Assembly: GCA_030682575.1 (NCBI GenBank)
Contig: JAUXNX010000019.1
Location: 1-64,000 of the forward strand
Origin: Gammaproteobacteria bacterium
GTDB lineage: Bacteria; Pseudomonadota; Gammaproteobacteria; Pseudomonadales; Pseudohongiellaceae
Length of the DNA stretch: 64,000 nucleotides
Reading direction: 5' to 3'
In this document: positions 8,526 to 29,561 of the stretch, in pieces
Layout of the letters: each line of letters opens with the position of its first letter
Numbering within the stretch: the stretch's first letter is position 1
Notes under the pieces: model-generated
What the model was told of the DNA's origin: nothing
Database searches by the model: none
What the model saw: only the letters and a program-made list of their open reading frames with translations
Translations under genes and position numbers: made by a program

Positions 8526-10994
8526 TTACTCATAGCGCAAAGAGAGCACCGGGTTCAGGTTTGCAATCCTCGCGCACTGAATGACGACCGTCAGGATCGC
8601 CAGCAGAATCATCACAAGCGTTACCAGCACGTAGTTGGCAATGGAAAATATGGCCTGTGACGAGAAACCTGCATAGAACATGTCGATTAAGAGATACGCA
8701 AAGGGCCATGCCACAAGACATGACACCAGCACCGGTCTGAGAAAATCCCACGTCAGTAGCAAAACAATGGAAATAGCTCTGGCCCCAAGTATCTTTCGTA
8801 TCCCGACCTCCTTGGTGCGTTTCGTCGTTGAGTAATACGCCAATGCGAACATTCCAAAAGCAGCGATTAGTACCGTGATTGCGCTGGCGATCAATGCGGC
8901 AAGAGTCAGGCTTTCACTGCGAACTCTTATAGCGTCATTCAGGATTTGTGCGTAAAAGCTTCTGGTGATCTGCACGCCGGGTCGATGCGAAGCCCACACC
9001 TCGTCGATGTGGTTGAGAGCCTCTCCAGTCAAAGCAGGATCAATTCGAATGTGAAACACTTCCAACGGGTCCCGCGTTCCCATCATGATGCCGATGGCCC
9101 GATTGTCACTCCCGATGTCATTCACGGTTCTGAACTGCTTGACAACCCCTATCACTTGGAAGGAGATGTTGGAGAGCATCACAATTTCACCAACCGCTTG
9201 TTCAGGAGACTGAATCCCCAGACGCTCGGCAAACCGATCGGTAATGATGATGCCGTAGTTGCGTGCAGGCTCTGGCGGTGTTGTGAGAGAAATGAAATCC
9301 GCCGAAAATTCTTCCGAGAAAGTTCGCCCTGCCAGGAGTTCAAAGCCATAGGTTTCAACGAAACCAACGCCAACCTGAATGAATCCTGCTCCGATCGTGG
9401 AGTCGGGACTGGAAGTGGCAAGGTGGAATTGAGACAGATCGATCGACTCCGGTGGCAGAAAATTGGAAACGGCCAACGATTTCACGCCAACGTGTCGAGC
9501 CATCTCCGAAAGCATGGCGTCGTAGTTGAATGCGTCCGAATCCCGTGCGTTGTAGCGGGTGTCCAACACGATCAGTTCATCCTTTGCAAAGCCTGAATCC
9601 ATCTCTTGCAAGTGTCGAGTCTGGAAATAGATCGCAAGCGACAGCAGGATCAGCACGGTTGACACAGTGAACTGGGCAGCCGTGACGCTGGATTTTGCCA
9701 GCGTTCTGGTGCGTTTGGTTGCAATACGGCTGTGTACACTGCGGACAGGTTCAGACCTGGCGTGAGCAATCGCTGGCAGAGTGCCTGCCATGAGCCCTAC
9801 GGCAATTGCCAGCATCGCAATGATGGGGGTTACTGACGTAGTGAATATGTCTGTAAACGTGAATGCAGCGCTCGTCATTGTCGTGTACACCGGCACCGCT
9901 TCAGCCACGATCGAAAGGGCGAGCAGTATGGCGAGGGAGGTACACAGCAACGACTCGAACAGAAACTGCACAAGGACATCTCCTCGTGTCGCGCCCAGAG
10001 TACGCCGTACACTCACTTCCTTGCTCCGACTGCCTACGCTGGAGATCGCCAGATTCATGTAATTTACGCAGGAAGCTCCCAGGATCAAACAAGCGAAAAG
10101 AGTCAGTCCAAAGAGAGTCATCCTTCGGGAGGAGTTCTCTGTCTGGGCAAAGTCGTTGTCCAACGGATTCAAGTAAATATCATCGACAGGCTGAAGCGAG
10201 AGCCCGAGTCCTTGACTGTCAGCAAGCGCCCTTGAGTTGTCGGGCATTCTGCGGTTCAGGAAGTCTGCCAGATTGCCGTTGAATACTTTAGAGGACTCGC
10301 CTGCGGCAAGCTTGACGAAGGTTTGCGTACCACTGAACTGCATCCAATTCCCACCAGCACTCATGAAGTTCGGGCCAAACATCTGTCGTCCTGTGTCGGA
10401 AGACAGTGCAATTTCGACAGCGTGCGTGGCGCTCTCCGGTTGATCGCGAACAATCCCGGTGACGCGCATTTCAATATCGTTTAACGTCAGTATCTGTCCA
10501 ATGGCACTCTGGTCGTCGAAATATTTCCTCGCTGCCGACTCGGACATGATCATCGAATTGGGTGCCATCAACGCAGAATTCGAGTCGCCTTTAATGAATT
10601 TGAGGTCCAGAATTTCTATTGCATCCTGTTCCATAAATAAGAATTCATTGGAGAGTGATTGTCCATTGCGAAGGAAATCTCCGGTGGAAAACCGCACCCG
10701 GGCGATTTTCTCGATCTGATCTGCGAAATCCAACAGCAGGTTCGGTGCGATGGCGTCGGGTGTTACTCTGATTCGATAGGGCTGATTGGTCTCTGGAATT
10801 ATGAGATGAGAAACGAGCCTGTAAGTATCTTGCCAATCTTCAATGTATTTGTTTGAGCCATTCACGAAATGAAGATGCATCGCAATCAGCGTGCTGGCTG
10901 ATATGCCTAGAGCCAAGCTGAGAATCTTGATGGCCGAGACCACAGGCTGGCGCGAAAAATTGCGCACAGAGGTGAATAGGTAGCTGGTCAGCAT
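8526..10994 (-). CDS. MacB/FtsX-type ABC permease, 822 aa (operon 2, second)
   Basis: This large FtsX-type permease has an N-terminal helix (ILSLALGISASTLIAMHLHF), a periplasmic domain and a central membrane block (NYMNLAISSVGSRSKEVSVRRTLGATRGDV). A second periplasmic domain and C-terminal helices with KRTKEVGIRKILGARA follow. Its closest relative here is 30279-32744, sharing QPV-SAIK-LSLALG near the start. AAGGAAG precedes the ATG. It follows the permease at 11008-13455 by 13 bp, so the two are co-transcribed without an ATPase of their own. They probably borrow the ATPase at 6428 or 29562. Confidence 0.9.
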   Translation of the reverse strand: MLTSYLFTSVRNFSRQPVVSAIKILSLALGISASTLIAMHLHFVNGSNKYIEDWQDTYRLVSHLIIPETNQPYRIRVTPDAIAPNLLLDFADQIEKIARVRFSTGDFLRNGQSLSNEFLFMEQDAIEILDLKFIKGDSNSALMAPNSMIMSESAARKYFDDQSAIGQILTLNDIEMRVTGIVRDQPESATHAVEIALSSDTGRQMFGPNFMSAGGNWMQFSGTQTFVKLAAGESSKVFNGNLADFLNRRMPDNSRALADSQGLGLSLQPVDDIYLNPLDNDFAQTENSSRRMTLFGLTLFACLILGASCVNYMNLAISSVGSRSKEVSVRRTLGATRGDVLVQFLFESLLCTSLAILLALSIVAEAVPVYTTMTSAAFTFTDIFTTSVTPIIAMLAIAVGLMAGTLPAIAHARSEPVRSVHSRIATKRTRTLAKSSVTAAQFTVSTVLILLSLAIYFQTRHLQEMDSGFAKDELIVLDTRYNARDSDAFNYDAMLSEMARHVGVKSLAVSNFLPPESIDLSQFHLATSSPDSTIGAGFIQVGVGFVETYGFELLAGRTFSEEFSADFISLTTPPEPARNYGIIITDRFAERLGIQSPEQAVGEIVMLSNISFQVIGVVKQFRTVNDIGSDNRAIGIMMGTRDPLEVFHIRIDPALTGEALNHIDEVWASHRPGVQITRSFYAQILNDAIRVRSESLTLAALIASAITVLIAAFGMFALAYYSTTKRTKEVGIRKILGARAISIVLLLTWDFLRPVLVSCLVAWPFAYLLIDMFYAGFSSQAIFSIANYVLVTLVMILLAILTVVIQCARIANLNPVLSLRYE

Positions 10995-17592: not shown

Positions 17593-17656
17593 GGTGACGC
17601 TAGCATGCTCCAATCGATTTCTTGAGCATAAGCTGCGACCACAGCCTGAAAACATC

Positions 17657-19033
17657 ATGACAATAAAAACCGGCAACATCCTTATCGTCGATGACGACCG
17701 CGACGTACTGCTCTCCGCTCAGATGATCCTCAAGCGCGAGTTTGCCAGCGTGCGCTGCCTGTCCAATCCATCCGAGCTCGAAGAGGAACTGGCCTCATTC
17801 CCGCCCGATCTTGTGCTGCTGGACATGAACTTTACACGCGGCATGACCAGCGGCGACGAAGGGCTCTACTGGCTGCAGAAGATCAAGCAAACGGATTCTT
17901 CAATCCAGGTGGTGACGTCTACCGCTTACGGTGAGATTGATCTCGCGGTGAAAGCGATCAAACAGGGTGCAGCCGATTTTGTGCAGAAGCCCTGGGTCAA
18001 CGAGAAACTCGTCGCGACGCTGCGCACCTGCCTGAAGCTCGGCGAGTCCCATCGCCGCATTGAACAATTGCAACACACGCAGCAGGCGCTCAGTGAGGAG
18101 ATCGGACGCGGTTTCGCAGCACTGATTGGAGAGTCCGATTCCTTCGCTACCGTACGTACATTGATCGAGCGCGTGGCCGCCACTGATGCCAACGTGCTCA
18201 TCACCGGCGAGAATGGCACCGGCAAGGATCTGGTCGCCCATGCCATCCATAACAAGTCACTGCGGGCCAATGGACCGATGATCTCCGTGGACATTGGCGC
18301 CATCCCTGCCACGCTGTTCGAGTCAGAGATGTTCGGCCACATCAAGGGTTCCTTCACGGACGCACGAGAGAATCGCCCTGGCAAATTTGAACTGGCGACA
18401 GGTGGCACCTTATTTCTGGATGAGATCGGCAATCTCGAGGCCGCCACACAGGCCAAACTGCTGCGTGCACTGGAATCCCGCACTATCACCCGTGTGGGCG
18501 GCCAGAAGCCCATCCCCATCGACATTCGTTTGATCTGCGCCACCAATGCTTCCATGCGCGATCTCTCCAATCCCGACGTGTTCCGCCGTGACCTTCTTTA
18601 CCGCATCAACACTGTTGAAATCAGGTTGCCGTCTCTGCGCGAACGCACTGCCGACATTCCCCTGCTGCTGGAACACTATCGGGAAGTGTTTGCGCAGAAA
18701 TACAACCGACACGATGTGAGCATTCCCAAGGCGACCGCCAGAAAGCTGCAGTCGTACGAGTGGCCAGGCAATGTGCGCGAACTGAAGCACGCAGTCGAGC
18801 GGGCTATCATCATTTCCAGCGAATCCAAACTGACCGTGGAGGATTTTCTCATCGGCACTCGCGTGCAGGAGGAAGCCCTTGGCAATCTGAATCTCGCTGA
18901 GTTGGAAAAAAACGCCATTCGCAACGCCATACGGCAGTGCGAGGGCAACCTCACGCAGGTGGCAAAACTCTTGGGCCTTGGCCGCACCACGCTGTACCGC
19001 AAGATGGAAAAATATGAACTCGTTGATCAGTAG
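17657..19033 (+). CDS. Sigma-54-dependent response regulator (RR1)
   Basis: This 458-aa NtrC-family activator has a receiver domain (about 7-125) with phospho-acceptor Asp56 in LLDMNF. An AAA+ domain follows with Walker A GENGTGKD from residue 184, Walker B TLFLDEIGNL and an arginine-finger region. The C terminus is a Fis-type helix-turn-helix (NLTQVAKLLGLGRTTLYRKM). The sigma-54 contact loop reads GSFTDA (231-236) instead of GAFTGA. ATG 17657 begins at the receiver domain. Its last codons are part of a 26-bp direct repeat shared with the start of HK1, so HK1 was probably its overlapping neighbour. It is the likely activator of the three sigma-54 promoters in the island. Confidence 0.93.
   Translation: MTIKTGNILIVDDDRDVLLSAQMILKREFASVRCLSNPSELEEELASFPPDLVLLDMNFTRGMTSGDEGLYWLQKIKQTDSSIQVVTSTAYGEIDLAVKAIKQGAADFVQKPWVNEKLVATLRTCLKLGESHRRIEQLQHTQQALSEEIGRGFAALIGESDSFATVRTLIERVAATDANVLITGENGTGKDLVAHAIHNKSLRANGPMISVDIGAIPATLFESEMFGHIKGSFTDARENRPGKFELATGGTLFLDEIGNLEAATQAKLLRALESRTITRVGGQKPIPIDIRLICATNASMRDLSNPDVFRRDLLYRINTVEIRLPSLRERTADIPLLLEHYREVFAQKYNRHDVSIPKATARKLQSYEWPGNVRELKHAVERAIIISSESKLTVEDFLIGTRVQEEALGNLNLAELEKNAIRNAIRQCEGNLTQVAKLLGLGRTTLYRKMEKYELVDQ
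19008..19033 (+). repeat. 26-bp direct repeat, left copy (RR1 3' end)
   Basis: These 26 bases, containing ATGAACTCGTTGATCAGTAG, recur exactly at 28115-28140. Here they encode the RR1 C terminus and stop. The ATG in the other frame is the HK1 start in the right copy. Confidence 0.9.
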
Positions 19034-19119
19034 CGTCTTCAGGCAACCATCGCTGGTATCAATACACCAAAAGTGTCGTCAATTTCTGGTTGCGAACTGC
19101 AGAAATAGCTCGTCGTCAT

Positions 19120-20424
19120 TCAGAACTTGATTTTGAAACGAGTCCACTTTCCGGGTTCACAATCCAGAGAATAACGAAACCCATGCTGTTGCAGGATTTC
19201 CCTGACCAGCATCAGGCCAATCCCCTGACCGTGACGTTTGGTGGAATAAAAGGGCTTGAACAGTTTCTGCCTGTCGGCCTGAGTCAGCACACCCGCAGAG
19301 TCCTGTACGATCAGTTCCGGCGCGTCGCTACCCATTTGCAGGATTATCGTCAGCACCCCGTCACGCTCAATCGCCTCGAATGCGTTTTTCACGATGTTGA
19401 TCAGCGCCTGCTCGAACAGATGCGTGTCCAGATTCACGCTGGGGACACCACCGTCGACAAACTCCCAGCGAATATTCCGGTTCCTGAGCTCCACCGCAAA
19501 CATCGCCTGAATATTGCGGATCAACAGGGGCAGTGACACGGGCTGGCAATCGGGCGCTGGCAAGTGTACTACCTGGGCCAGACGCTGCATGAACTCTGCC
19601 AGACGACTGTTGCGCTCCATCACCACCTGCAGGGCGTGCGTGAAATCCGCACGGTCCTGCTCCTGCAACTGTGCACAGTACTCCGTGCAGCCCTGCAACA
19701 GACTGTTGGTGGCGCCGATGGTGTTGTTCACCTCGTGGCTGGTCATCTGGATCAGCTTTTCATAGGCGCTGCGTTCCGCTGCCTGCATCTCGCTGGTCAA
19801 CTCTTCCAGCATCAGGAATTTGCGGTGGAAGCCGCGATCATAAAAAACCGATTGTTGTACCCGGAAGCGCTTGCCATCGGGAAGCGTAATCAACGCGGGC
19901 AACTTCTGCTGATCCTCGATGATCGCGGTGGCAAGACACGAGGGGTGATCTGCGAGCCTGGAACCTTTTAACGCTTCGAACTCCAACCCCAGCATGTGTT
20001 CTGCCGCCGGATTCACATTGCTGATGCAATCATCGAAATCGTGAATGATCACGCCGATAGGAGTGGCCTGCAGCAATTTGTCAAAGAAGCCTTTTTGCTC
20101 GCCGAGTTTCAATTGCTCCCGGTGCAGCTCCTCCAGCATTTCGTTGAACAGACCCACCAGCTCATCCAGTTCACTGATACCAACCGGCTTCATACGAGTA
20201 CCAAACTCGCGATCCTGGAACGTGGCTTTGCTGGCCTGAACGAACTCGATTGGTCGCAGCGCTCTGCGAATCATTACGGCGCCGACAAATACAAATGCAA
20301 CAATCGCCGCCTCCATCACGAAGAACCACAGCATCTCTCCCTGCCGGAAAAAATACACCGCAATGACGAGTGGAAACACCTGCACGGCCAGCAAGTAAAC
20401 CCAGAGTTGGGCGCGCAGAGTCAA
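19120..20424 (-). CDS. Membrane sensor histidine kinase (HK2)
   Basis: This 434-aa kinase has two N-terminal membrane segments (VYLLAVQVFPLVIAVYFF and FVMEAAIVAFVFVGAVMI), a HAMP-like linker and a PAS-like domain (about 95-200). A histidine box follows with His230 in MTSHEVNNTIGA, then an ATPase domain with N-box NIVKNAFEAI and glycine box GQGIGLML. The start is TTG: it overlaps the RR2 stop as TTGA and has GGAG eight bases upstream, while the next ATG would cut the first membrane helix. It closes the six-gene operon of the second system. Confidence 0.9.
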   Translation of the reverse strand: MTLRAQLWVYLLAVQVFPLVIAVYFFRQGEMLWFFVMEAAIVAFVFVGAVMIRRALRPIEFVQASKATFQDREFGTRMKPVGISELDELVGLFNEMLEELHREQLKLGEQKGFFDKLLQATPIGVIIHDFDDCISNVNPAAEHMLGLEFEALKGSRLADHPSCLATAIIEDQQKLPALITLPDGKRFRVQQSVFYDRGFHRKFLMLEELTSEMQAAERSAYEKLIQMTSHEVNNTIGATNSLLQGCTEYCAQLQEQDRADFTHALQVVMERNSRLAEFMQRLAQVVHLPAPDCQPVSLPLLIRNIQAMFAVELRNRNIRWEFVDGGVPSVNLDTHLFEQALINIVKNAFEAIERDGVLTIILQMGSDAPELIVQDSAGVLTQADRQKLFKPFYSTKRHGQGIGLMLVREILQQHGFRYSLDCEPGKWTRFKIKF

Positions 20425-21809
20425 ACGCTTACTCCGTATTTTTCCAACCGCCGATACAAGGCCGGACGCGACAGGCCCAGCGCATTGGCCACTTGCGTAA
20501 GATTGTTCCGGTACTGTGACAGCGCCTTGAGGATCATGGCCCTTTCCATTTCCTCCAGCGTCATGGTGCCAACCGGAAGATCCGGTATCTGTGTTTGTGC
20601 GCCGACCTGCTTGCCAAGCCGTCCGGCATTCTGAAACGAGTGTGGTGTCAGTTCAGCAGTGTCCGATATCAACACAGCTCGTTCTATGGTCTGGCGCAGC
20701 TCGCGGATATTGCCCGGCCAGAGCTGCTGTTGCAGCCACTGTACTGCCTCGTCGCTCAGCTGCAGCGGCGCATAACCGTAGCGCTGGCAAATTTCCTGCA
20801 CCATATGCCGGGCCAGTTCCGGAATATCCTCTTTGCGTTCCCGCAAGGGTGGCAGTCTCAATGTGATCAGGTTGATGCGGTACAGAAGGTCCTCGCGGAA
20901 CAAGCCGTTTGTTACCAGCAAATCCAGATCGTGATTGGTGGCGGCAATCACCCGCACATTTGCCGTTCGTGTTGTTGAAGACCCGAGTGGTTGATAGCTC
21001 TGATCCTGCAACACACGCAGCAGCTTCACCTGGGACGCTTTGTCCAGATCACCGATCTCATCGAGGAAGATGCTGCCATTGCCCGCTGCTTCGAAGCGTC
21101 CGACCCGTTCCGATTTCGCGTCAGTGAAAGCGCCCTTCACATGCCCGAACATCTCGCTTTCGAACAGGTTGCCGGGAATGCCGCCAAGATTGACCTTCAC
21201 CAGCGGCTTGTTGCGGCGTTTCGAATTGGCGTGAATTGCGTCCGCAATCAGTTCCTTGCCAGTGCCACTTTCACCGAGTATCAACACGGAGGCATCGGTG
21301 GCGCTGATGCGTCCCACGGTTTCCAGCAGCTGCAATAAGACCGGGGACTGCCCGACGATACCGGCGAGATCGTATTGCGCGTCAAGCCGAGCGCGGGTGA
21401 TGGTGCTATCCGCTTTGCTGCTGTTGATCTCCAGCGCCGTGGCAACCACCTGCAGCAGCCGCTCATTGCTCCAGGGTTTGGCCAGGAAATCGTTGGCGCC
21501 GGCCTTCATGCCTTTGACAGCGAGATCAATGGAGCCCCACGCGGTAATCAATACCACCGGTGTCTGTCCATACAACTGTCTTATGGCCTGCAGGAGCTGC
21601 AACCCTTCCTCGCCACTGGTCTGGCGTGAGAAGTTCATGTCGTGGATTACCAGGTCCGGCTGGTGCTCCTGCACCAGTGCCAGCGCCAGCGCAGGATCAA
21701 AGGCGACCAGAGGCACATAGCCAGCACGCTTGAGAAGCATCGACAGGGACGAGGTCACCGACTCATCGTCATCCACGATCAGAATTTTCTTCGCAGCGCT
21801 TGCTCGCAT
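20421..21809 (-). CDS. Sigma-54-dependent response regulator (RR2)
   Basis: This 462-aa NtrC-family regulator has a receiver domain with Asp57 (VIHDMNFS), an AAA+ domain (Walker A LGESGTGKE, Walker B GSIFLDEIGDL) and a Fis-type helix-turn-helix (NLTQVANALGLSRPALYRRL). The sigma-54 loop reads GAFTDA. The ATG at 21809 has GAGAG upstream; a TTG at 21827 is an alternative. It lies between permease B and HK2 in the operon whose promoter is itself of the -24/-12 type, so RR2 probably drives its own synthesis. Confidence 0.92.
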   Translation of the reverse strand: MRASAAKKILIVDDDESVTSSLSMLLKRAGYVPLVAFDPALALALVQEHQPDLVIHDMNFSRQTSGEEGLQLLQAIRQLYGQTPVVLITAWGSIDLAVKGMKAGANDFLAKPWSNERLLQVVATALEINSSKADSTITRARLDAQYDLAGIVGQSPVLLQLLETVGRISATDASVLILGESGTGKELIADAIHANSKRRNKPLVKVNLGGIPGNLFESEMFGHVKGAFTDAKSERVGRFEAAGNGSIFLDEIGDLDKASQVKLLRVLQDQSYQPLGSSTTRTANVRVIAATNHDLDLLVTNGLFREDLLYRINLITLRLPPLRERKEDIPELARHMVQEICQRYGYAPLQLSDEAVQWLQQQLWPGNIRELRQTIERAVLISDTAELTPHSFQNAGRLGKQVGAQTQIPDLPVGTMTLEEMERAMILKALSQYRNNLTQVANALGLSRPALYRRLEKYGVSV

Positions 21810-21836
21810 CAGACTCTCAATCCGCAATTCAATCCC

Positions 21837-23021
21837 CTACTCATAGCGCAGCGCTTCCACCGGATCTTTCCGTGTCGCCTGGTAGCTGGGGTACAGCGCA
21901 AAAAGTATGCACAGCGCCAACAGTACCAGCGTGCTCACAGCCACCGAAGGGATGAACAAATTCCAATCCATCGCCTGAATGACACCGGCCAGTGGCAATT
22001 GCACCACCAGCGCTACACCCAGTACAAGGGCGAGGCACGCCACGGCGAGCAGTTCCAGCACCACCTGTAATCGTACGCTGCCTGCGCTGGCTCCCAGCGC
22101 ACGTCGCAGCCCCATTTCCGGCGTGCGACGGATGACGTTCTGCCACAACACCCCCAGCATCCCGAAGCCGACCATGACCAGCAGGAACAGCACAACGACG
22201 GCGGCGATCAGCAGCGGAATCATGAAGGTCTGGAAGTGAGCCTGCTGCAGCGATGTCCAGGAATCGACATCGAAATCCCAGCCCGGCGCCGTCCGTTGTA
22301 GCACGTTCTGCAACTGCTCCTCAAACTGCGCCGTCGCACCAGGCCTCACCAGCAACACCAACGTCGGCGGTGCACGGAACTCACTCTCCGGCTGCAAGCG
22401 CATCATCATGAGAGGTTTGCTCGCATAGAATTCGCCATCCTGCCGGAAGTCCTCGAATACTCCGACGATTCTTCGTTGGCTGGTGGGACCATTGGGAATC
22501 ACCAAACCAACGACGTCCCCTCCCGCAGCCTCACTGAACGTCCTGTTTACCAGTATCGGCGCAATGTTCTGATCTCCTGCCACTGGGCTCTCATCCTGAG
22601 GACCAAACCAGCGGCCTTCCACAAGCTGCATACCGATTGCCTCAGGCAGGGTGGCGCTGGCGGAGTTCATGGCAGCGCGGAACTGCTTGCCCCTGACCTC
22701 GGCAAACATTGCACTTTCTCCAAACGAAAATGGGCGATCGGACAGTAGCTCCGTCGCCTCCACTGCATCCATCTGGTCTACGACTTGAAGAAGTTGTTGC
22801 AGGGTTGACTGGTCAGTCGCCTGCAGGGTGCCATTGGTTGAGATCGCAACCGACCAGGTATTTGCGACATTGAATCCCAATGGCGTGTTGTACAGGCGGT
22901 AGAGGTTCAAGCTGAATCCGGTCAAAGCGAACAGGATCAGAAAGGTGACAAGCAATTCAACAATGATCAACGCATTCGCGCCTTTGCGCTGCCACATCAG
23001 GGTAAAGACATGACGAATCAT
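21837..23021 (-). CDS. FtsX-type ABC permease B (system 2), 394 aa
   Basis: This half-size MacB-type permease has the 4-helix layout. The N-terminal helix is ANALIIVELLVTFLILFALTGF. A periplasmic domain follows, and three C-terminal helices (LLIAAVVVLFLLVMVGFGML, VLELLAVACLALVLGVAL, VAVSTLVLLALCILFALYP) end in DPVEALRYE. The FtsX motif RRTPEMGLRRALGASAGS is present. ATG 23021 has AAGGAG upstream and overlaps the permease A stop by one base; a GTG three bases earlier is possible. Confidence 0.9.
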   Translation of the reverse strand: MIRHVFTLMWQRKGANALIIVELLVTFLILFALTGFSLNLYRLYNTPLGFNVANTWSVAISTNGTLQATDQSTLQQLLQVVDQMDAVEATELLSDRPFSFGESAMFAEVRGKQFRAAMNSASATLPEAIGMQLVEGRWFGPQDESPVAGDQNIAPILVNRTFSEAAGGDVVGLVIPNGPTSQRRIVGVFEDFRQDGEFYASKPLMMMRLQPESEFRAPPTLVLLVRPGATAQFEEQLQNVLQRTAPGWDFDVDSWTSLQQAHFQTFMIPLLIAAVVVLFLLVMVGFGMLGVLWQNVIRRTPEMGLRRALGASAGSVRLQVVLELLAVACLALVLGVALVVQLPLAGVIQAMDWNLFIPSVAVSTLVLLALCILFALYPSYQATRKDPVEALRYE

Positions 23022-24319
23022 CACACAGCTCCTTTCAAGGCCTGCACGGGGTCCAGACGGGACATACGCCAGGCTGGATATACTGCCGACAGCAAACCGA
23101 ACACCAGGATGTACAAAAAACCCAGCACAAGCACCCGGCTGTTGAACTGGAAACTTTCACCAGCCAGCACGCCGGTCTGGCCGATCAACATGAGCGCAAG
23201 TAGCGCCAAACCAAAACCCAGCAAGCCACCCAATACCGTGAGGACCAGATTTTCTACAATGAACTGTCTGACCAGATGGCCCGAAGATGCACCAAAACTC
23301 TTGCGTACACCTATTTCGGACGCGCGCTCAAGAATGCGACTGATATTGATGTTGACCAGGTTGAATACAGGCAACAACATGAATAGCAATGCGGCTCCCC
23401 CCAGCACTGCCAGTATCACTTTGCCCGTCTGCTGTTGATCAGGCGCGATGTCCGAAGGACCAATCAACTGCAGGTACATTTGTGCTTTGGGTACAGCCCA
23501 TGAATAGACTTCCAATGGGCGGCCAGGACGGTAGAGCTGCGTAGGAAGGGGCTGGAAGTTACGCACTGCAAGCTGGTATTCCTCCTGAATGCGGGGAATA
23601 TCCGCGTTGCTGCGCGCCTGCATCAGGACTACGAACTCGCCACGATCTTCGTGACGAAACTGCGTCAATGGCGTCGCAAAAATAGGCAACCAGATGTCAG
23701 CCACTGCCAACGTCTGCAGCGAGGATACATCTTTCACCACGCCGATCACCTGAAAGTTCTGCCCGTCCAGTTCGATTCGTTTGCCCACAGCTGTATCGCC
23801 GGGGAAGTATTGATCACGCGTGGCTTCAGAAATGACCGCCACATATTCACCTTGTTGGTGTTCCTGCTCGTTGATCGGACGGCCCTCGATGAAATCGAAT
23901 TGCAGGATGCGCCAGAAATTGGCATCCGTGCGCTTGACCAAAGAACTGATCTTTACGCCATTCCGGAAACCAGTCACTTCACGACCTAGCAACGGCCCCG
24001 CAATCGAGCCGGAAAAGACGCTGATCAGCTCCGGCGTCTGCATCCCCAGCACACTATTTCCCACGAATCGGTACCCGAGCGTATTGGTGTTTCTATATAG
24101 GAACCTATCGTTTTCGTCACGCTGCGTTATGGTCATCACACCGGCGACCAAAATATTCTCGCTGTTTCTTTCAGGCCCCTGTGGACGCAGAAAACTCTCG
24201 ATGAGGCTGGTGACAACCAGCAGCACCATCAAGGTCAGGGATATGCCGAACAGACTGACGCACGTATAAAACTTGCGTCGTCGCAAAATCTTGAACGCGA
24301 GTAACAGATTGCTTCTCAT
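23021..24319 (-). CDS. FtsX-type ABC permease A (system 2), 432 aa
   Basis: This MacB-type permease has an N-terminal helix (LFGISLTLMVLLVVTSLI), a periplasmic domain with the motif QNFQVIGVVKDV, and three C-terminal helices. The FtsX motif ERASEIGVRKSFGASSGH lies after the first of them. The ATG at 24319 (MRSNLLLAF) is chosen; the open frame reaches back to a TTG overlapping the ATPase stop. Together with permease B it would form a heterodimeric transporter served by the ATPase at 24349-25014. Confidence 0.9.
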   Translation of the reverse strand: MRSNLLLAFKILRRRKFYTCVSLFGISLTLMVLLVVTSLIESFLRPQGPERNSENILVAGVMTITQRDENDRFLYRNTNTLGYRFVGNSVLGMQTPELISVFSGSIAGPLLGREVTGFRNGVKISSLVKRTDANFWRILQFDFIEGRPINEQEHQQGEYVAVISEATRDQYFPGDTAVGKRIELDGQNFQVIGVVKDVSSLQTLAVADIWLPIFATPLTQFRHEDRGEFVVLMQARSNADIPRIQEEYQLAVRNFQPLPTQLYRPGRPLEVYSWAVPKAQMYLQLIGPSDIAPDQQQTGKVILAVLGGAALLFMLLPVFNLVNINISRILERASEIGVRKSFGASSGHLVRQFIVENLVLTVLGGLLGFGLALLALMLIGQTGVLAGESFQFNSRVLVLGFLYILVFGLLSAVYPAWRMSRLDPVQALKGAV

Positions 24320-24348
24320 GGTTATGAATTTCCTTGGGTGATCCGGCG

Positions 24349-25014
24349 TCAATGAATCAGTTGGCCATCGAAGATGCGCAGGATACGGCGCGTACGGTGC
24401 GCCTTTTCCTCGTCATGCGTGACCATCACCACCGTCGTGTTGTCGTGCTGGTTCAGACCTTCGAGAATCTTCATGATCTCGTCGCCCATCGCACTGTCGA
24501 GATTGCCGGTGGGCTCGTCCGCCAGAATGATCTGTGGCCGACCCACGATGGCGCGGGCTATCGCCACGCGTTGCTGCTGACCTCCTGACAATTGCGTCGG
24601 GTAATGTTTTACGCGCGCACTCAGTCCCACTTTTTCCAGCGCTTCCAGGGCCAGCCTGCGCCGTTCACCGGCTGTGCAGGAACGATACAACAACGGGATT
24701 TCCACGTTGTCCACCACGCTCAGATCGCTGATCAGGTGATACTCCTGGAACACGAAACCGATCTTGTGGTTGCGCAGTTTGGCCAGCTCCTTGTCCTTGC
24801 AGGTTTCGATTAACTGGCCATCAATATGTACGGCCCCCGTCGTGGGTCTGTCCAGCAAACCCATCAGGTTGAGCAGGGTGGACTTACCGCAACCTGATGG
24901 TCCCATGATCGATACAAACTCACCTTTATTTATCTCCAACGAGATATCACGCAGGGCCAGAGTTTCGATACTGGTGGCCTGGTAAGTCTTGCTGGTGTTC
25001 TCCAGTCTTATCAT
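24349..25014 (-). CDS. ABC transporter ATPase, LolD/MacB type (system 2)
   Basis: This ATPase of about 221 aa shows Walker A GPSGCGKST, Q-loop GFVFQEYHLI, signature LSGGQQQR, Walker B ILADEPTGNLDS and H-loop VMVTHDEEKA. The ATG at 25014 (MIRLENTSK) is favoured by an upstream GGGAG; an ATG five codons earlier lacks a site. It is clearly distinct from the two near-identical ATPases of system 1. Confidence 0.93.
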   Translation of the reverse strand: MIRLENTSKTYQATSIETLALRDISLEINKGEFVSIMGPSGCGKSTLLNLMGLLDRPTTGAVHIDGQLIETCKDKELAKLRNHKIGFVFQEYHLISDLSVVDNVEIPLLYRSCTAGERRRLALEALEKVGLSARVKHYPTQLSGGQQQRVAIARAIVGRPQIILADEPTGNLDSAMGDEIMKILEGLNQHDNTTVVMVTHDEEKAHRTRRILRIFDGQLIH

Positions 25015-25047
25015 CTGTGTTGCTCCCATGATTTCAATTTCGAGTGA

Positions 25048-26295
25048 TCAATCGGTCACTACCACTTGCTCCAGATGGTCATAGTCACTCATGTCCGAGA
25101 TGATGATCTCTTCACCCTCGACGAGGCCGCTGACTATCTCCACGAAGTTGCTGTTCTGCAATCCCACTTCCACCTGTCGTTTGCTGGCAGTGTTTCCCTG
25201 TATCACGAATACCTGCTGCAAGCCCGCGCTGTTGAACACGATGCCATTGCTGACGCGCATCCCGGAGTCGCGCTGCTGGGTGAGTATTTTCGCCTCCACT
25301 CGCATACTAGGTTTGAGTTGCACATGGCCCGCATGAGTCAGTTCAATCTGCAAACGAATGGTGCCGTTGTCCACGGCCGGCAGGATCTGGCTGAGAGTGC
25401 CGCTGATGTCGCCAGTGCCAATGTCAATGTTGACGGGCATGCCCACGCTCACCTGATGCAGATAAAAATCCGACAGCGTGGCGTCAACGCGAAAGCTGGA
25501 AAGATCGCTGATGCGAACCAGCTCGGCGCCAGCGACGACATTCTGTCCCAGTTGACTCGACAACACCGTAATCATTCCAGCCGTGCTGGCCCGAACGGTG
25601 GTGTCCGATAGCAGTTGCTCCTGCTCGTTCAGCTGTTGCCGCAGGAGCTGACTTTCAATGTCGCGCTGTTCCACCAGATTACGATTGGAAGCCAGCGTGT
25701 CGCTTATCTGTTGGACCAACTGGCGCACAAGTACGCCGGATTTCTTCACGCTCAACGATGCCAGATCATAGTCATTCTGCGAGGCAATGTTGGAACGACG
25801 CAAAGTCTCGTAACGCTCCAGAGTGACGGTCTGGTTCTCCAGATCCAGACGTGCCAGCTCTTCCTGATTGCGCAACGCACTCAACTGCTGATGTTGCTGC
25901 TGCACCAAACCTGCTATTTCCAGCTCTTTCAGCCGCAGCTGATCTTTCAAACGGCGGATATCCAGTTCAATCTGTGTACTGTCCAACTTCAGAATTGGAT
26001 CCCCCGCTTTTACCGTACTGCCCAGCGGAAGATGAATCTCGCGAATGCTGGAAGACACCGGGCTGATCAACACGCGCTCGTACATCGGTACCACCAGTCC
26101 GACTGCCTGCACCTCGGTGCTGATCGGGCCGCGCTCTACGATTGCGGTGCGGATGGCGCTGCGCTCAACCGCTGGCGCGAGCCAGTGGCGCAAAAGCACA
26201 AGCAGCGCAATGAAGGCGAGTACAACGAGTAGGCTGCGCCCCCACGAATGCAACCTCCGACGTCTCAGAGTTCCTGCGTCAAGCGCAATGTCCAC
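25048..26295 (-). CDS. HlyD/MacA-type periplasmic adaptor (system 2)
   Basis: This 415-aa adaptor has one N-terminal helix (SLLVVLAFIALLVLL), a first lipoyl half (LPLGSTVKAGDPILKLDS) and a long Gln/Leu/Glu coiled coil (about 110-235). The second lipoyl half (VRASTAGMITVLSSQLGQ) and C-terminal barrel segments follow. The start is a GTG preceded by GAGGT. It is the first gene of the leftward six-gene operon adaptor, ATPase, permease A, permease B, RR2, HK2, and begins about 20 nt after the predicted sigma-54 start site. Confidence 0.9.
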   Translation of the reverse strand: MDIALDAGTLRRRRLHSWGRSLLVVLAFIALLVLLRHWLAPAVERSAIRTAIVERGPISTEVQAVGLVVPMYERVLISPVSSSIREIHLPLGSTVKAGDPILKLDSTQIELDIRRLKDQLRLKELEIAGLVQQQHQQLSALRNQEELARLDLENQTVTLERYETLRRSNIASQNDYDLASLSVKKSGVLVRQLVQQISDTLASNRNLVEQRDIESQLLRQQLNEQEQLLSDTTVRASTAGMITVLSSQLGQNVVAGAELVRISDLSSFRVDATLSDFYLHQVSVGMPVNIDIGTGDISGTLSQILPAVDNGTIRLQIELTHAGHVQLKPSMRVEAKILTQQRDSGMRVSNGIVFNSAGLQQVFVIQGNTASKRQVEVGLQNSNFVEIVSGLVEGEEIIISDMSDYDHLEQVVVTD

Positions 26296-26326
26296 GATCT
26301 ACCTCGAAAAGAGTTTAGAAAGTGAT

Positions 26327-26342
26327 ATCAATATCCGTGCCA
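26327..26342 (-). promoter_or_regulatory. Sigma-54 (-24/-12) promoter for system 2 operon
   Basis: On the minus strand the site reads TGGCACGGATATTGAT. The -24 half TGGCACG is a perfect consensus, and TTGA replaces TTGC at -12. The start site would be about 20 nt before the GTG of the adaptor gene. Confidence 0.7.
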
Positions 26343-26458
26343 GTGCATGAGACCGTCCAAAGACAGCGTAAGCAATTGATAAATCGATGGTATTTTGAGT
26401 TGCAGGAATCTGTCCAGAAAACCTTCAGCGCCGTCACACGTCCGTTATTCAAGTCGCC

Positions 26459-26474
26459 TGTCCGCATCCGGACA
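26459..26474. promoter_or_regulatory. Putative RR2 operator
   Basis: TGTCCGCATCCGGACA is an inverted repeat with 6-bp arms and a 4-bp spacer. It is centred about 126 bp upstream of the -24 element, in the range for enhancer sites. It differs from the RR1 operator, as expected for a separate regulator. Confidence 0.5.
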
Positions 26475-26584
26475 ATGGTTGGTCAGTGACTTAGGAGCGC
26501 CAATAAGCGATTGAGCTTCACAACCTGACAACGCTCTGTGGTCGGCGCATGTATACACCATGGCCTCCTATCGACGTCCTTGCT

Positions 26585-26650
26585 GTCCACTTGCTTCCAG
26601 CGTATGCTAAGTGCCATAAAGTCCACTTATTGAAGCTTTCACGTCCACTT
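26585..26650 (+). promoter_or_regulatory. Triple GTCCACTT repeat upstream of AbiEi
   Basis: GTCCACTT occurs at 26585-26592, 26621-26628 and 26643-26650; the last copy overlaps the leader just before the ATG at 26656. The middle copy is part of the small palindrome AAGTCCACTT. AbiEi antitoxins repress their own promoters through repeats, so this is the likely operator. Confidence 0.45.
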
Positions 26651-26655
26651 GAGCC

Positions 26656-27195
26656 ATGAATATTTCAACCGCACTGAAACGACTGAATTCCTGGGACAAG
26701 CAGGGCCGCTTCATATTTACGCGTGCAGACCTGGCCAAGATTTTCCATGAGGACGGTCCCCGTGCTTTCAAGGCGGGATTGCAGCGCCTGGTGGCCGACG
26801 AGATTCTGCTGCGCCCGGTGCGGGGAGTGTACTTCTATGCCCTGAGTCAGAGCCAGGGCGACGACACCATTGAGCTCATTGCCAGAGCACTGCGCCGGGG
26901 CGAATACAACTATGTCAGCCTGGAGTCAGCCTTGAGCGAATACGGGGTGATCTCCCAGATTCCGGTGGACCGACTCACTGTGGTGACCACAGGGCGTAAA
27001 GGCGAGTATCCGACACCTTTTGGCACCATCGAGTTTACCCACACCAAGCGCCGGCCCGTAGATATCCTGCTCGGTGTCCGGGAAGTGGGCCGGCCCCTGA
27101 AGCTGGCCACTGCGGCGGTCGCCTGGCGTGATCTGAAAAGAGTGGGCAGAAACACCCATCTGGTCAATGAACAGGAACTGGCACTCCATGGCTGA
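26656..27195 (+). CDS. abiEi: AbiEi-type antitoxin
   Basis: This 179-aa protein has an N-terminal winged-helix region (FTRADLAKIFHEDGPRAFKA...LVADEILLRPVRGVYFYA). A C-terminal antitoxin domain follows (YNYVSLESALSEYGVISQIP, TPFGTIEFTHTKRRP). It matches the AbiEi half of type IV toxin-antitoxin pairs, which repress transcription and counteract AbiEii. It overlaps the toxin gene by 8 bases. It is divergent from the adaptor operon and part of the inferred insertion. Confidence 0.88.
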   Translation: MNISTALKRLNSWDKQGRFIFTRADLAKIFHEDGPRAFKAGLQRLVADEILLRPVRGVYFYALSQSQGDDTIELIARALRRGEYNYVSLESALSEYGVISQIPVDRLTVVTTGRKGEYPTPFGTIEFTHTKRRPVDILLGVREVGRPLKLATAAVAWRDLKRVGRNTHLVNEQELALHG

Positions 27196-28090
27196 ATTGA
27201 TCAATAAAGCGGATTTCGAGCGTCTGACCACGCTTGCCATGAGCGATCCCGGACGCGCGCATATGCGGCCGGTGATCCAGAAAGAGCTGCTGCACTACGA
27301 TATTCTCTACTGTCTGGATAATGCTGGCCTGCTGGATCAGTTGACCTTTCAGGGTGGTACTTCGCTGCGCCTGTGTCACGGCTCGCCACGTTTCAGCGAG
27401 GATCTGGATTTTGTCGGTGGCAAGGACTTCAGTCGACAACAGCTTGAGCCCATCAAGGAGTGTATCGAACACTACATTGGCCAACGCTACGGACTACTGG
27501 TCAGTGTCAAGGAACCACGGGAGCTGAAACATGAGCGCGAATACGCCGATCTGAAAATCGATAAATGGCAGATTTCTCTCGTGACCTCCCAGCAACTGAA
27601 ACACATTCCTCAGCAACGCATCAAGGTGGAGGTTGCCAACATCGAGGCCTATTCCCGCGAACCAAAGGCTTTGCAGCTCAATTACAATTTTTTGCCCGAA
27701 GGCTACGGCGACACCCTGGTGCTGACGGAAACTCTGGACGAAATCATGGCCGACAAGCTGGTATCACTGGTGAACACCACCGGTTATGTGCGCAATCGGG
27801 ACATCTGGGACCTGCGCTGGCTGAAGCAACAGGGCGCAGAACTACGGACGGACTGGGTGACCAATAAAATCCGCGATTACCGCATCGACGACTACCCCGG
27901 CAAGCTGGCGCGCATGATCGAGCGCCTGCCGGAGATCATCGAGGGAGAGGTGTTTCAACGCGAGATATTGCGCTTTGTTCCTCAGGAGGTGGCGGAACGC
28001 ACTCTCAAGAAACCCAAGTTCAATCAGTTTCTGACCACAGAGGTCTCTGGTCTTTTAGAACAGGTGCAGGTGTCCTTGTCCGCGACCTGA
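27188..28090 (+). CDS. abiEii: AbiEii/AbiGii-type nucleotidyltransferase toxin
   Basis: This 300-aa nucleotidyltransferase-fold protein has the core motif GGTSLRLCHGSPRFSEDLDF, containing the Gly-Ser and Asp-x-Asp positions of the DUF1814 family. A later conserved segment (ETLDEIMADKLVSLV...NRDIWDLRWLKQQG) also fits. The family transfers nucleotides to tRNA or other targets and causes abortive infection. ATG 27188 is preferred because AGGAA lies upstream; an ATG at 27167 lacks a site. The gene looks intact. Confidence 0.9.
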   Translation: MAELINKADFERLTTLAMSDPGRAHMRPVIQKELLHYDILYCLDNAGLLDQLTFQGGTSLRLCHGSPRFSEDLDFVGGKDFSRQQLEPIKECIEHYIGQRYGLLVSVKEPRELKHEREYADLKIDKWQISLVTSQQLKHIPQQRIKVEVANIEAYSREPKALQLNYNFLPEGYGDTLVLTETLDEIMADKLVSLVNTTGYVRNRDIWDLRWLKQQGAELRTDWVTNKIRDYRIDDYPGKLARMIERLPEIIEGEVFQREILRFVPQEVAERTLKKPKFNQFLTTEVSGLLEQVQVSLSAT

Positions 28091-28114
28091 TTGAACAAGT
28101 CCAGAGTACGGAGA

Positions 28115-28140
28115 AAAAATATGAACTCGTTGATCAGTAG
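28115..28140 (+). repeat. 26-bp direct repeat, right copy (HK1 5' end)
   Basis: This is an exact copy of 19008-19033. Here it supplies the start codon and first codons of HK1. GGAG lies just upstream at 28110-28113. Confidence 0.9.
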
Positions 28141-29488
28141 TCTGAAGGGGCACCGCGGCCAGGCGATCTTCTCCGTTGGATTCCTCGTACTCGCGATTTT
28201 CCTGTTCTGCTACAGCATTCTCAGCACAGAATGGGTGGGTACGCCGATCCTTTGTGCGTTCGTCATCATTCTGATCACGTTGAACCTGATGCGCATGACA
28301 GAGCGCAGCAACGAGAACTTCACGCAGTTCATCAACAACATTTCCCACAACGATTTCTCCAGTACCACGTCACACTCCAATGCGGAAACCACGGCGCAGA
28401 GATTCGTGGAGGCTCAGCGGACTCTGCTTGAGAAGTACCGCAAATTGAAGGCGGATCGCTCTGCCCAGCACGAGTATCTCCACCTGGTCGTCGAGCATGT
28501 GGACACCGCGCTGGTGTGCTTCGACGAGACCGGCAATATTGAGATCATCAACCAGGCCGCGAAGGAACTGCTGAAGAGTCGCTACATCAACACGCTTTCC
28601 AGAATAGAGACCATCAGCCCAGCACTGGCAGACGCACTGCAGCAATTGAAGGCGGGCGAGAATCGCGTACTGAAGATCAGCCTCGGCAACGAGCCCGTGC
28701 AACTGATACTCGCGGCCACTGAGTTCCGACTGCTCGACAGGGATCACAAACTGGTCTCCATGCAGAACATTCAATCAGCGTTGGACGAAAAGGAAATCGA
28801 AAGTTGGCAGAAACTGATCAAGGTGCTGACCCACGAGATCATGAACTCGATGACGCCGATTGTGTCGCTCAGCAACCATTTGGAGAGCGTGGTGCACGAC
28901 AGCGAAGTGACAGAACACGGAGTGAGAACTGACGCGGAGCAGCACCGGGACATCGTGCAGGGCATAGAGACCATTGCGGCGCGCAGTCAGGGGCTGTTGC
29001 GATTTGTGCAAGCGTATCGATCCCTCAGCAATCTGCCCAGGCCCAATCTTGCGGATATCAGTGTGGAGAGTCTGTTTCAACGCATGGCAACGCTGCTGGA
29101 GGAACGCTTCGCCAGTGCAGGTATCGCGTTTCATTTCAGCGTCAAACCCCAGACCTTGAGTGTCGCCGCCGACATCAATCTCGTTGAGCAGATACTCTTG
29201 AACCTGCTCAACAACGCCATTGATGCAGTCGCTGAGATAAGCGCACCCCGCATTGATCTGACTGCGTTCAAGCATGAGCATGGCAAGACCATCATTCAAG
29301 TGACCGACAACGGTTGCGGCATCAGCAAAAGCTGCATCGATGACATCTTCACGCCTTTCTTCACCACGAAGGAGACCGGCACTGGAGTCGGGCTGAGTCT
29401 GTCGCGACAATTGGCGAGGCTCAACCATGCGTCACTGACAGTGAGCAGTACCGAGGGGAAGGGCAGTAGTTTTCAGTTGGGGTTTTGA
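28121..29488 (+). CDS. Membrane sensor histidine kinase (HK1)
   Basis: This 455-aa kinase has two close N-terminal membrane helices (FSVGFLVLAIFLFCYSIL and VGTPILCAFVIILITLNLM). A helical linker, a PAS-like domain (about 115-215) and a histidine box with His238 (LTHEIMNSMTPIVSL) follow. The ATPase domain shows N-box LLNLLNNAIDAV, DNGCGI and GTGVGLSLSRQL. Such HEIMNS kinases commonly pair with NtrC-type regulators. Its first 20 bases duplicate the end of RR1, which identifies RR1 as the probable original partner. It is convergent with the ATPase at 29562 and separated from it by a strong hairpin. Confidence 0.92.
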   Translation: MNSLISSLKGHRGQAIFSVGFLVLAIFLFCYSILSTEWVGTPILCAFVIILITLNLMRMTERSNENFTQFINNISHNDFSSTTSHSNAETTAQRFVEAQRTLLEKYRKLKADRSAQHEYLHLVVEHVDTALVCFDETGNIEIINQAAKELLKSRYINTLSRIETISPALADALQQLKAGENRVLKISLGNEPVQLILAATEFRLLDRDHKLVSMQNIQSALDEKEIESWQKLIKVLTHEIMNSMTPIVSLSNHLESVVHDSEVTEHGVRTDAEQHRDIVQGIETIAARSQGLLRFVQAYRSLSNLPRPNLADISVESLFQRMATLLEERFASAGIAFHFSVKPQTLSVAADINLVEQILLNLLNNAIDAVAEISAPRIDLTAFKHEHGKTIIQVTDNGCGISKSCIDDIFTPFFTTKETGTGVGLSLSRQLARLNHASLTVSSTEGKGSSFQLGF

Positions 29489-29516
29489 ACAACCCACAAA
29501 CGGAATCATTTCAACG

Positions 29517-29553
29517 CCTTGAAAATCCCGCACGTGAAGCGGGATTTTCAAGG
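29517..29553. terminator. Bidirectional hairpin between HK1 and ATPase
   Basis: CCTTGAAAATCCCGC and GCGGGATTTTCAAGG form a perfect 15-bp stem with a 7-nt loop. It lies between two convergent genes. The A/T-rich outer stem can supply U-rich tails in both directions. Confidence 0.8.
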
Positions 29554-29561
29554 CTGACACG

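Follow-up and report, generated by a model that had tools for sequence, protein, structure and literature searches.

An AbiE-ending segment that appears to have split an overlapping regulator-kinase gene pair with duplication of the junction

The route by which small toxin-antitoxin pairs that lack a transposase enter chromosomes is, to our knowledge, an open question. Here we describe a candidate case in a 64,000-nucleotide stretch (the window) of contig JAUXNX010000019.1 from a Gammaproteobacteria bacterium of the Pseudohongiellaceae (assembly GCA_030682575.1), in which the response regulator gene RR1 and the histidine kinase gene HK1 are separated by a segment that ends in an AbiEi-AbiEii pair and lies between two copies of a direct repeat. 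The closest described events concern restriction-modification genes, for which insertion with a long and variable target duplication was described (PMC1643837, PMC3031569, PMC3874152); the excerpts of these articles used here cite Nobusato et al. 2000 and Furuta et al. 2010 as the sources for this mode. Compared with the insertions in those excerpts, our locus shares a small self-maintaining gene set, the lack of a visible mobile element, a direct target duplication and an empty site in a relative. It differs in that an AbiE pair is accompanied by a six-gene exporter cargo and in that the duplication of 26 bp just covers a gene overlap. The flanking repeats at other AbiE pairs are 23-133 bp long, and the duplications at restriction-modification genes are, in the excerpt of PMC3874152, on the order of 100 bp.

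The AbiEi and AbiEii family matches at our locus are like those of the AbiE type IV toxin-antitoxin system, whose published accounts (PMC3985639, PMC7319586) deal, in the sections drawn on here, with toxin action and autoregulation and not with chromosomal entry. Toxin-antitoxin pairs of Mycoplasma mycoides also have flanking direct repeats, which their authors read as recombination scars (PMC8562856); that pair is an AAA-ATPase/subtilisin, and the excerpted text mentions no gene overlap. We found no description of AbiE pairs inserting with a long target duplication among the matches listed from the open-licence literature. Events of this kind are already known; what is new in detail is that the mode extends to AbiE, that a single gene overlap was used twice and that modules are stacked.

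The duplicated junction and its empty counterpart

The sequence AAAAATATGAACTCGTTGATCAGTAG occurs as an exact direct repeat (26 of 26 nt) at 19008-19033 and 28115-28140, with a spacing of 9,107 bp. The whole 3.73-Mb assembly (33 contigs) contains exactly these two copies, both forward, and the window holds no others when up to three mismatches are allowed (100 shuffles gave 0.00). The left copy encodes the end of RR1 (K-Y-E-L-V-D-Q-stop, with the stop codon at 19031-19033), the right copy contains the HK1 ATG at 28121-28123, and the 20-nt core ATGAACTCGTTGATCAGTAG is read in both the RR1 and the HK1 frames. The copies are 9,081 bp apart, or 9,107 bp counting one copy. The first-pass annotation had described a 26-bp exact repeat that ends RR1 and supplies the start codon and first codons of HK1, and this repeat and its coordinates were confirmed. 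Its account of the block in between, as a second exporter with its own two-component pair plus AbiEi/AbiEii, also agrees with the features of the locus, which are as follows.

17654..19033, plus strand: RR1, sigma-54-type response regulator (receiver, AAA+, Fis helix-turn-helix), stop codon inside the left repeat copy
19008..19033, plus strand: 26-nt direct repeat, left copy, forming the 3' end of RR1
19034..28114: DNA between the repeat copies (9,081 bp), absent from the relatives' empty site
19123..20424, minus strand: HK2, histidine kinase, cargo (G112 homologue 52% identical in amino acids)
20424..21827, minus strand: RR2, sigma-54-type response regulator, cargo (G112 homologue 66% identical in amino acids)
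21840..23024, minus strand: FtsX/MacB-type permease, cargo
23024..24352, minus strand: FtsX/MacB-type permease, cargo
24352..25029, minus strand: ABC ATPase, cargo
25051..26295, minus strand: HlyD-type periplasmic adaptor, cargo
26656..27195, plus strand: AbiEi antitoxin (PADLOC PDLC02232, NCBIfam NF047376)
27188..28090, plus strand: AbiEii nucleotidyltransferase toxin (PF08843; PADLOC PDLC02296)
28115..28140, plus strand: 26-nt direct repeat, right copy, which supplies the HK1 ATG and first codons
28121..29488, plus strand: HK1, histidine kinase partner of RR1, now 30 nt downstream of AbiEii, same strand

An assembly artefact or a chance similarity might be suspected in a draft genome of 33 contigs. 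However, 26 exact bases in two copies in 3.7 Mb, with a chance expectation of 0.00 in the window, a repeat that covers just the overlap seen at the relatives' empty site and a contig spanning 204 kb make this explanation extremely improbable.

The eight insert genes all match families of other kinds, and neither a recombinase nor a transposase nor a linked insertion sequence was found among them (smaller frames were not scanned), in line with the earlier remark that no recombinase is visible. The eight genes likewise include no tyrosine or serine recombinase with att sites as expected of an integrase-borne island. A terminal inverted repeat of the insert was not found, the scores of the insert ends lying within those of shuffles.

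To read the corresponding site in relatives, we searched HK1 in 137 genomes of the family, 17 of which, including the window's own genome (G000), matched at 1e-70 or better. The 16 other matching genomes yielded 18 loci of the RR1/HK1 type. At 17 of these 18 loci the kinase ATG lies within the last codons of the regulator, with an overlap of 11-26 nt, usually in Lys-Tyr-Gly/Glu codons. The HK1 identity is just 34-37% at three loci from G057 and G058, which have the same overlap design and may be paralogues. In the closest relative, G010 (HK1 87% identical in amino acids), the 20-nt overlap is identical to that of the window and the neighbouring genes correspond as well (macB, RR1, HK1, ATP1 and perm1). 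Divergence from G010 is similar for the two genes, at 82.3% nucleotide identity for RR1 and 80.0% for HK1.

The relatives thus hold an uninterrupted one-copy site. The annotation had proposed from the window alone that the kinase ATG ancestrally lay inside the regulator's last codons and that HK1 belongs to RR1; such an arrangement is seen at the 17 loci, and this overlap, together with the identical overlap and neighbours in G010, assigns HK1 to RR1. Together, the relatives' direct overlap and the two exact copies in the window support the proposal that an insertion separated RR1 from HK1 and doubled the junction. The further claim that the block defines a mobile unit is not established, as the 9.1-kb block was not found at other sites at the cut-offs used.

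We consider the best explanation, with a probability of roughly 80%, to be that an AbiE-ending segment with an exporter operon entered the RR1/HK1 overlap and that the junction was duplicated, leaving both genes whole. It draws on the empty site, the duplicated junction, the second AbiE insertion at a congener's overlap, the excess of repeats near AbiE pairs elsewhere and the precedent of restriction-modification genes. The ancestor would have carried RR1 and HK1 as a two-gene unit with overlapping frames (20 nt in the closest relative), and the segment ending in AbiEi-AbiEii and also carrying the six-gene exporter/two-component operon would have entered at this overlap. A junction of 26 nt, including all of the overlap, would have been left on both sides of the segment. 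With RR1 ending in the left copy and HK1 beginning in the right one, neither gene has lost a codon. We infer that the insertion was driven or stabilised by AbiE, that a chance staggered or illegitimate joining produced the duplication and that selection kept just those joinings that duplicated the whole overlap. The case shows that overlapping genes can be separated without loss. The empty and filled pair at the overlap, together with its refilling in G013 and the stacked modules described below, offers precise sites for testing the joining step.

A second split of the same overlap in a congener

G013, a genome of the same genus, has the sole other split locus among the 18. RR1 and HK1 are 1,575 bp apart, and the two junction copies of 33 nt differ at 7 positions. 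The insert contains an AbiEi gene, which matches PF09407 and has PDLC02266 as its best PADLOC model. It also contains an AbiEii-family gene with an interrupted frame, the first piece of which matches PF08843 and, best, PDLC02294. These models differ from those of the window (PDLC02232 and PDLC02296), indicating that the two inserts carry different AbiE subfamilies. The genes read in this insert include no recombinase. A DUF433/DUF5615 (PIN-like) pair is situated between ATP1 and RR1, upstream of RR1, in the same genome (L035, G013 C22, reversed coordinates 10176-10765), so the exporter locus of G013 holds two toxin-antitoxin-type pairs.

The G013 genes do not share one pattern of relationship. 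RR1 of G013 is closer to G010 (86.1% nucleotide identity) than that of G000 is (82.3%), with tree support of 93/97 for grouping G010 and G013. For HK1, the identity between G000 and G010 is 80.0% and that to G013 is 72.5-72.8% (72.8% for G013 and G010). In a comparison of rpoB resting on G000, G010 and G013, the corresponding values are 87.3% and 82.1-82.5% (82.1% for G013 and G010). By identity, HK1 and rpoB therefore put G013 outside G000 and G010, unlike RR1, and this discordance makes the G013 locus look like a mosaic. Of its junction copies, the left is similar to G010 and the right to G006, over a few bases, and they may represent two alleles and not a single stretch that was duplicated.

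This pattern brings in homology-anchored illegitimate recombination, in which a donor fragment with an RR1 end and cargo would have joined by homology within RR1 on one side and illegitimately, shortly before the end of the resident RR1, on the other; the repeat pair would then consist of the donor and resident alleles of one gene end. The G010-like RR1 of G013 against its HK1 and rpoB, the different affinities of its two junction copies and the many imperfect repeat pairs at other loci fit such a course. On the other hand, the copies in the window are identical, the divergence from G010 is equal for RR1 and HK1, and a donor with RR1 already beside the cargo is required. Moreover, the HK1 tree does not separate G000, G010, G006, G013 and G067, and the RR1 fork falls short of the 95% mark. 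We regard this course as rather unlikely for the window.

Repeats and stacked modules around other AbiE pairs

We scored as a flanking repeat any direct repeat scoring at least 19 within 500 bp, at the 80 AbiEii loci of a named collection. Such repeats, of 23-133 bp, were present at 10 of the 80 AbiE loci; among 1,117 control windows taken from these loci, 12 had them (Fisher 3e-7). With gene pairs as controls, the counts were 9/78 and 4/362 (p 4e-5), the set of 78 dropping two contig-end loci, one of which is the positive L119. Many of the repeat pairs are imperfect, and by inspection their lengths and sequences vary by site. Clear cases are L115 (59 bp, at the 3' end of a TetR gene), L119 (104 bp), L123 (94 bp) and L143 (133 bp). 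The right repeat begins between -29 and +29 nt from the AbiEii stop in L115, L119, L123, L136, L141, L143 and L158, and between +47 and +241 nt in L160, L164 and L174. The left repeats of stand-alone AbiE inserts are 75-428 nt ahead of AbiEi.

G155 is the only clear case among 14 AbiE regions from the family genomes, with a 47-bp repeat just upstream of a Mur-ligase-type gene and the right repeat about 30 nt past the AbiEii stop. The empty site, with one full repeat copy and no adjoining AbiE match, is found in G129, G104 and G119; G129 has an AbiE pair on another contig. When both strands were looked at, the copy was full in L271 (G119) and absent from L275. G156, a close relative of G155, retains two copies around a degraded AbiE. 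Other candidates were set aside: the repeats around the G010 AbiE and the degraded G013 C25 pair are the starts of paralogous genes and not insertion repeats, and those around G013 C44 (3 copies) and C35 look dispersed and were not counted. The window's own genome has three more AbiEii-family loci, at which no flanking repeat was found within 5 kb; one of them has only about 150 bp on its upstream side.

Several observations weigh against the proposed insertion with duplication, or against a particular role of AbiE in it. At the cut-off used, 69 of the 78 AbiE loci have no flanking repeat. Restricting the count to repeats with exactly two copies, a filter that also removes L115 and L123, reduced the difference to 5/78 against 3/362 (p 0.006). 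The repeats of L160 (21 copies), L164 and L174 resemble dispersed or tRNA-terminator repeats, so that at least three of the ten repeat-bearing loci look dispersed. In the window, 7.6 kb separates the left repeat from AbiEi, far above the other cases. In G013, the grouping of RR1 with G010 against rpoB is better accommodated by an allelic mosaic than by a plain duplication. Finally, with 1.5-kb flanks and without screening for dispersed repeats, HipA loci have repeats (3/29) as often as order-level AbiEii loci (3/28; 30 fetched, 28 usable), with 0/27 for ParE. The similar HipA rate implies that the repeats are not special to AbiE and, judging from these counts, that the insertion mode is common to at least one other toxin-antitoxin family.

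At some sites, modules are stacked. L123 (254-3628) reads repeat, AbiE, repeat, AbiE, repeat, with three copies of one 89-94-bp repeat; its first AbiE is of the window's subfamily (PDLC02232/PDLC02296) and its second of a different one (PDLC02230/PDLC02293), and the last copy forms the 3' end of a bacterial sugar transferase frame truncated by the contig end. In G155, a third copy is partial (17 nt), and a Phd/ParE-type pair lies between the copies. L115 (9332-12201) has a diverged third copy (76%) of the TetR-end repeat beyond NUDIX and Lrp-type genes, which suggests a second stacked insert without toxin-antitoxin genes. The repeats from one insertion may thus serve later ones.

Tandem stacking in L123, direct repeats at a gene end and the reuse of the site by other cargo in G013 are also features of a site-specific integrative element, for which the 26 bp would be the att core and the integrase would have been lost or would act in trans. 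Nevertheless, repeats that vary by site in length (23-133 bp) and sequence, and the lack of a recombinase among the eight insert genes and the genes read in the G013 insert, render such an element very unlikely. A broader proposal would make AbiE pairs recombinase-free cassettes that enter with long target duplications, after which the duplicated gene ends dock, stack or swap modules (a second AbiE subfamily, Phd/ParE-type pairs, the exporter operon) by repeat recombination; in the window, the kinase would have been moved from the operon of its regulator to a place behind a toxin-antitoxin operon. We put this forward tentatively, as a generalisation that we hold to be less likely than not.

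Three individual loci may be noted. In G201 (L301:6491-8441), one of the three repeat-bearing order-level AbiEii loci, an AbiE pair is located between mutS and cinA/recA, and a 60-bp repeat covers the start of cinA. In G053 (L304:7070-9915), one of the HipA loci, a hipBA pair is flanked by imperfect direct repeats several hundred bp long. The AbiE pair of G120 (L076:7554-10960) directly adjoins a Cas4-Cas1 fusion gene (Pfam).

The exporter cargo and the new context of HK1

The minus-strand genes of the insert constitute one exporter/two-component operon of HlyD, ATPase, two permeases, RR2 and HK2. In G112 all six are present in an identical order (37-74% identical in amino acids), and no AbiE match was found in the 14 kb read around its operon. 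Its permease (44% identical in amino acids) was the one relative of the exporter permease among the 137 family genomes at the cut-offs used. Scoring the best 4-5 candidates per genome, we found no permease relatives beyond the window's own genome in 341 sampled genomes of the order (E 1e-95) or in 369 of the class (E 1e-90), and 72,556 plasmid records gave no permease match at E 1e-20. AbiEii had 35 matches in the plasmid records at E 1e-20, every one below 60% identity. A foreign base composition was rejected, the GC content being 0.555 in the exporter block and 0.553 in AbiE against 0.543 and 0.554 in the flanks. From the sequences compared, it is the AbiE pair and not the exporter that recurs between repeats elsewhere.

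The insert could have been assembled in two steps. AbiE would have entered first and alone, duplicating the 26 nt in the manner of G013, and the exporter operon would have arrived later between the left repeat and AbiEi. The right boundary corresponds to that of stand-alone AbiE inserts, whose left repeats are 75-428 nt ahead of AbiEi, G112 has the exporter operon with no AbiE in the 14 kb read, and modules are stacked at other sites (L123, G155 with its Phd/ParE-type pair and perhaps L115, where the genes are of the NUDIX and Lrp types). However, neither a third repeat copy at the junction of exporter and AbiE nor another duplication around the exporter was found. We therefore consider this order of events a serious possibility, at somewhat less than even odds.

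Whether in one step or two, the proposed insertion of an AbiE-ending segment would have given HK1 a new neighbour upstream. The AbiE assignment is based on matches to PDLC02232 (2e-73), NF047376 (above its cut-off) and PF08843 (5e-34), and AbiEi and AbiEii are adjacent with overlapping frames, as in the AbiE operon layout. The plus-strand pair stops 24 nt before the right repeat, which is the insert's end, and HK1 follows 30 nt past AbiEii with GGAG in front of it. A terminator scan of 26200-28300 gave one plus-strand site, at 27959-27972 inside AbiEii, a number of sites similar to that in shuffles, and no terminator-like site between AbiEii and HK1. The absence of a site there makes co-transcription of HK1 with AbiE plausible; HK1 would now be read from the AbiE operon, and a sensor kinase may have been rewired to a toxin-antitoxin promoter. 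Downstream of HK1, a perfect 16-nt inverted repeat with a 7-nt loop (window 29516-29554) is located between HK1 and the convergent ATP1, possibly as a shared terminator.

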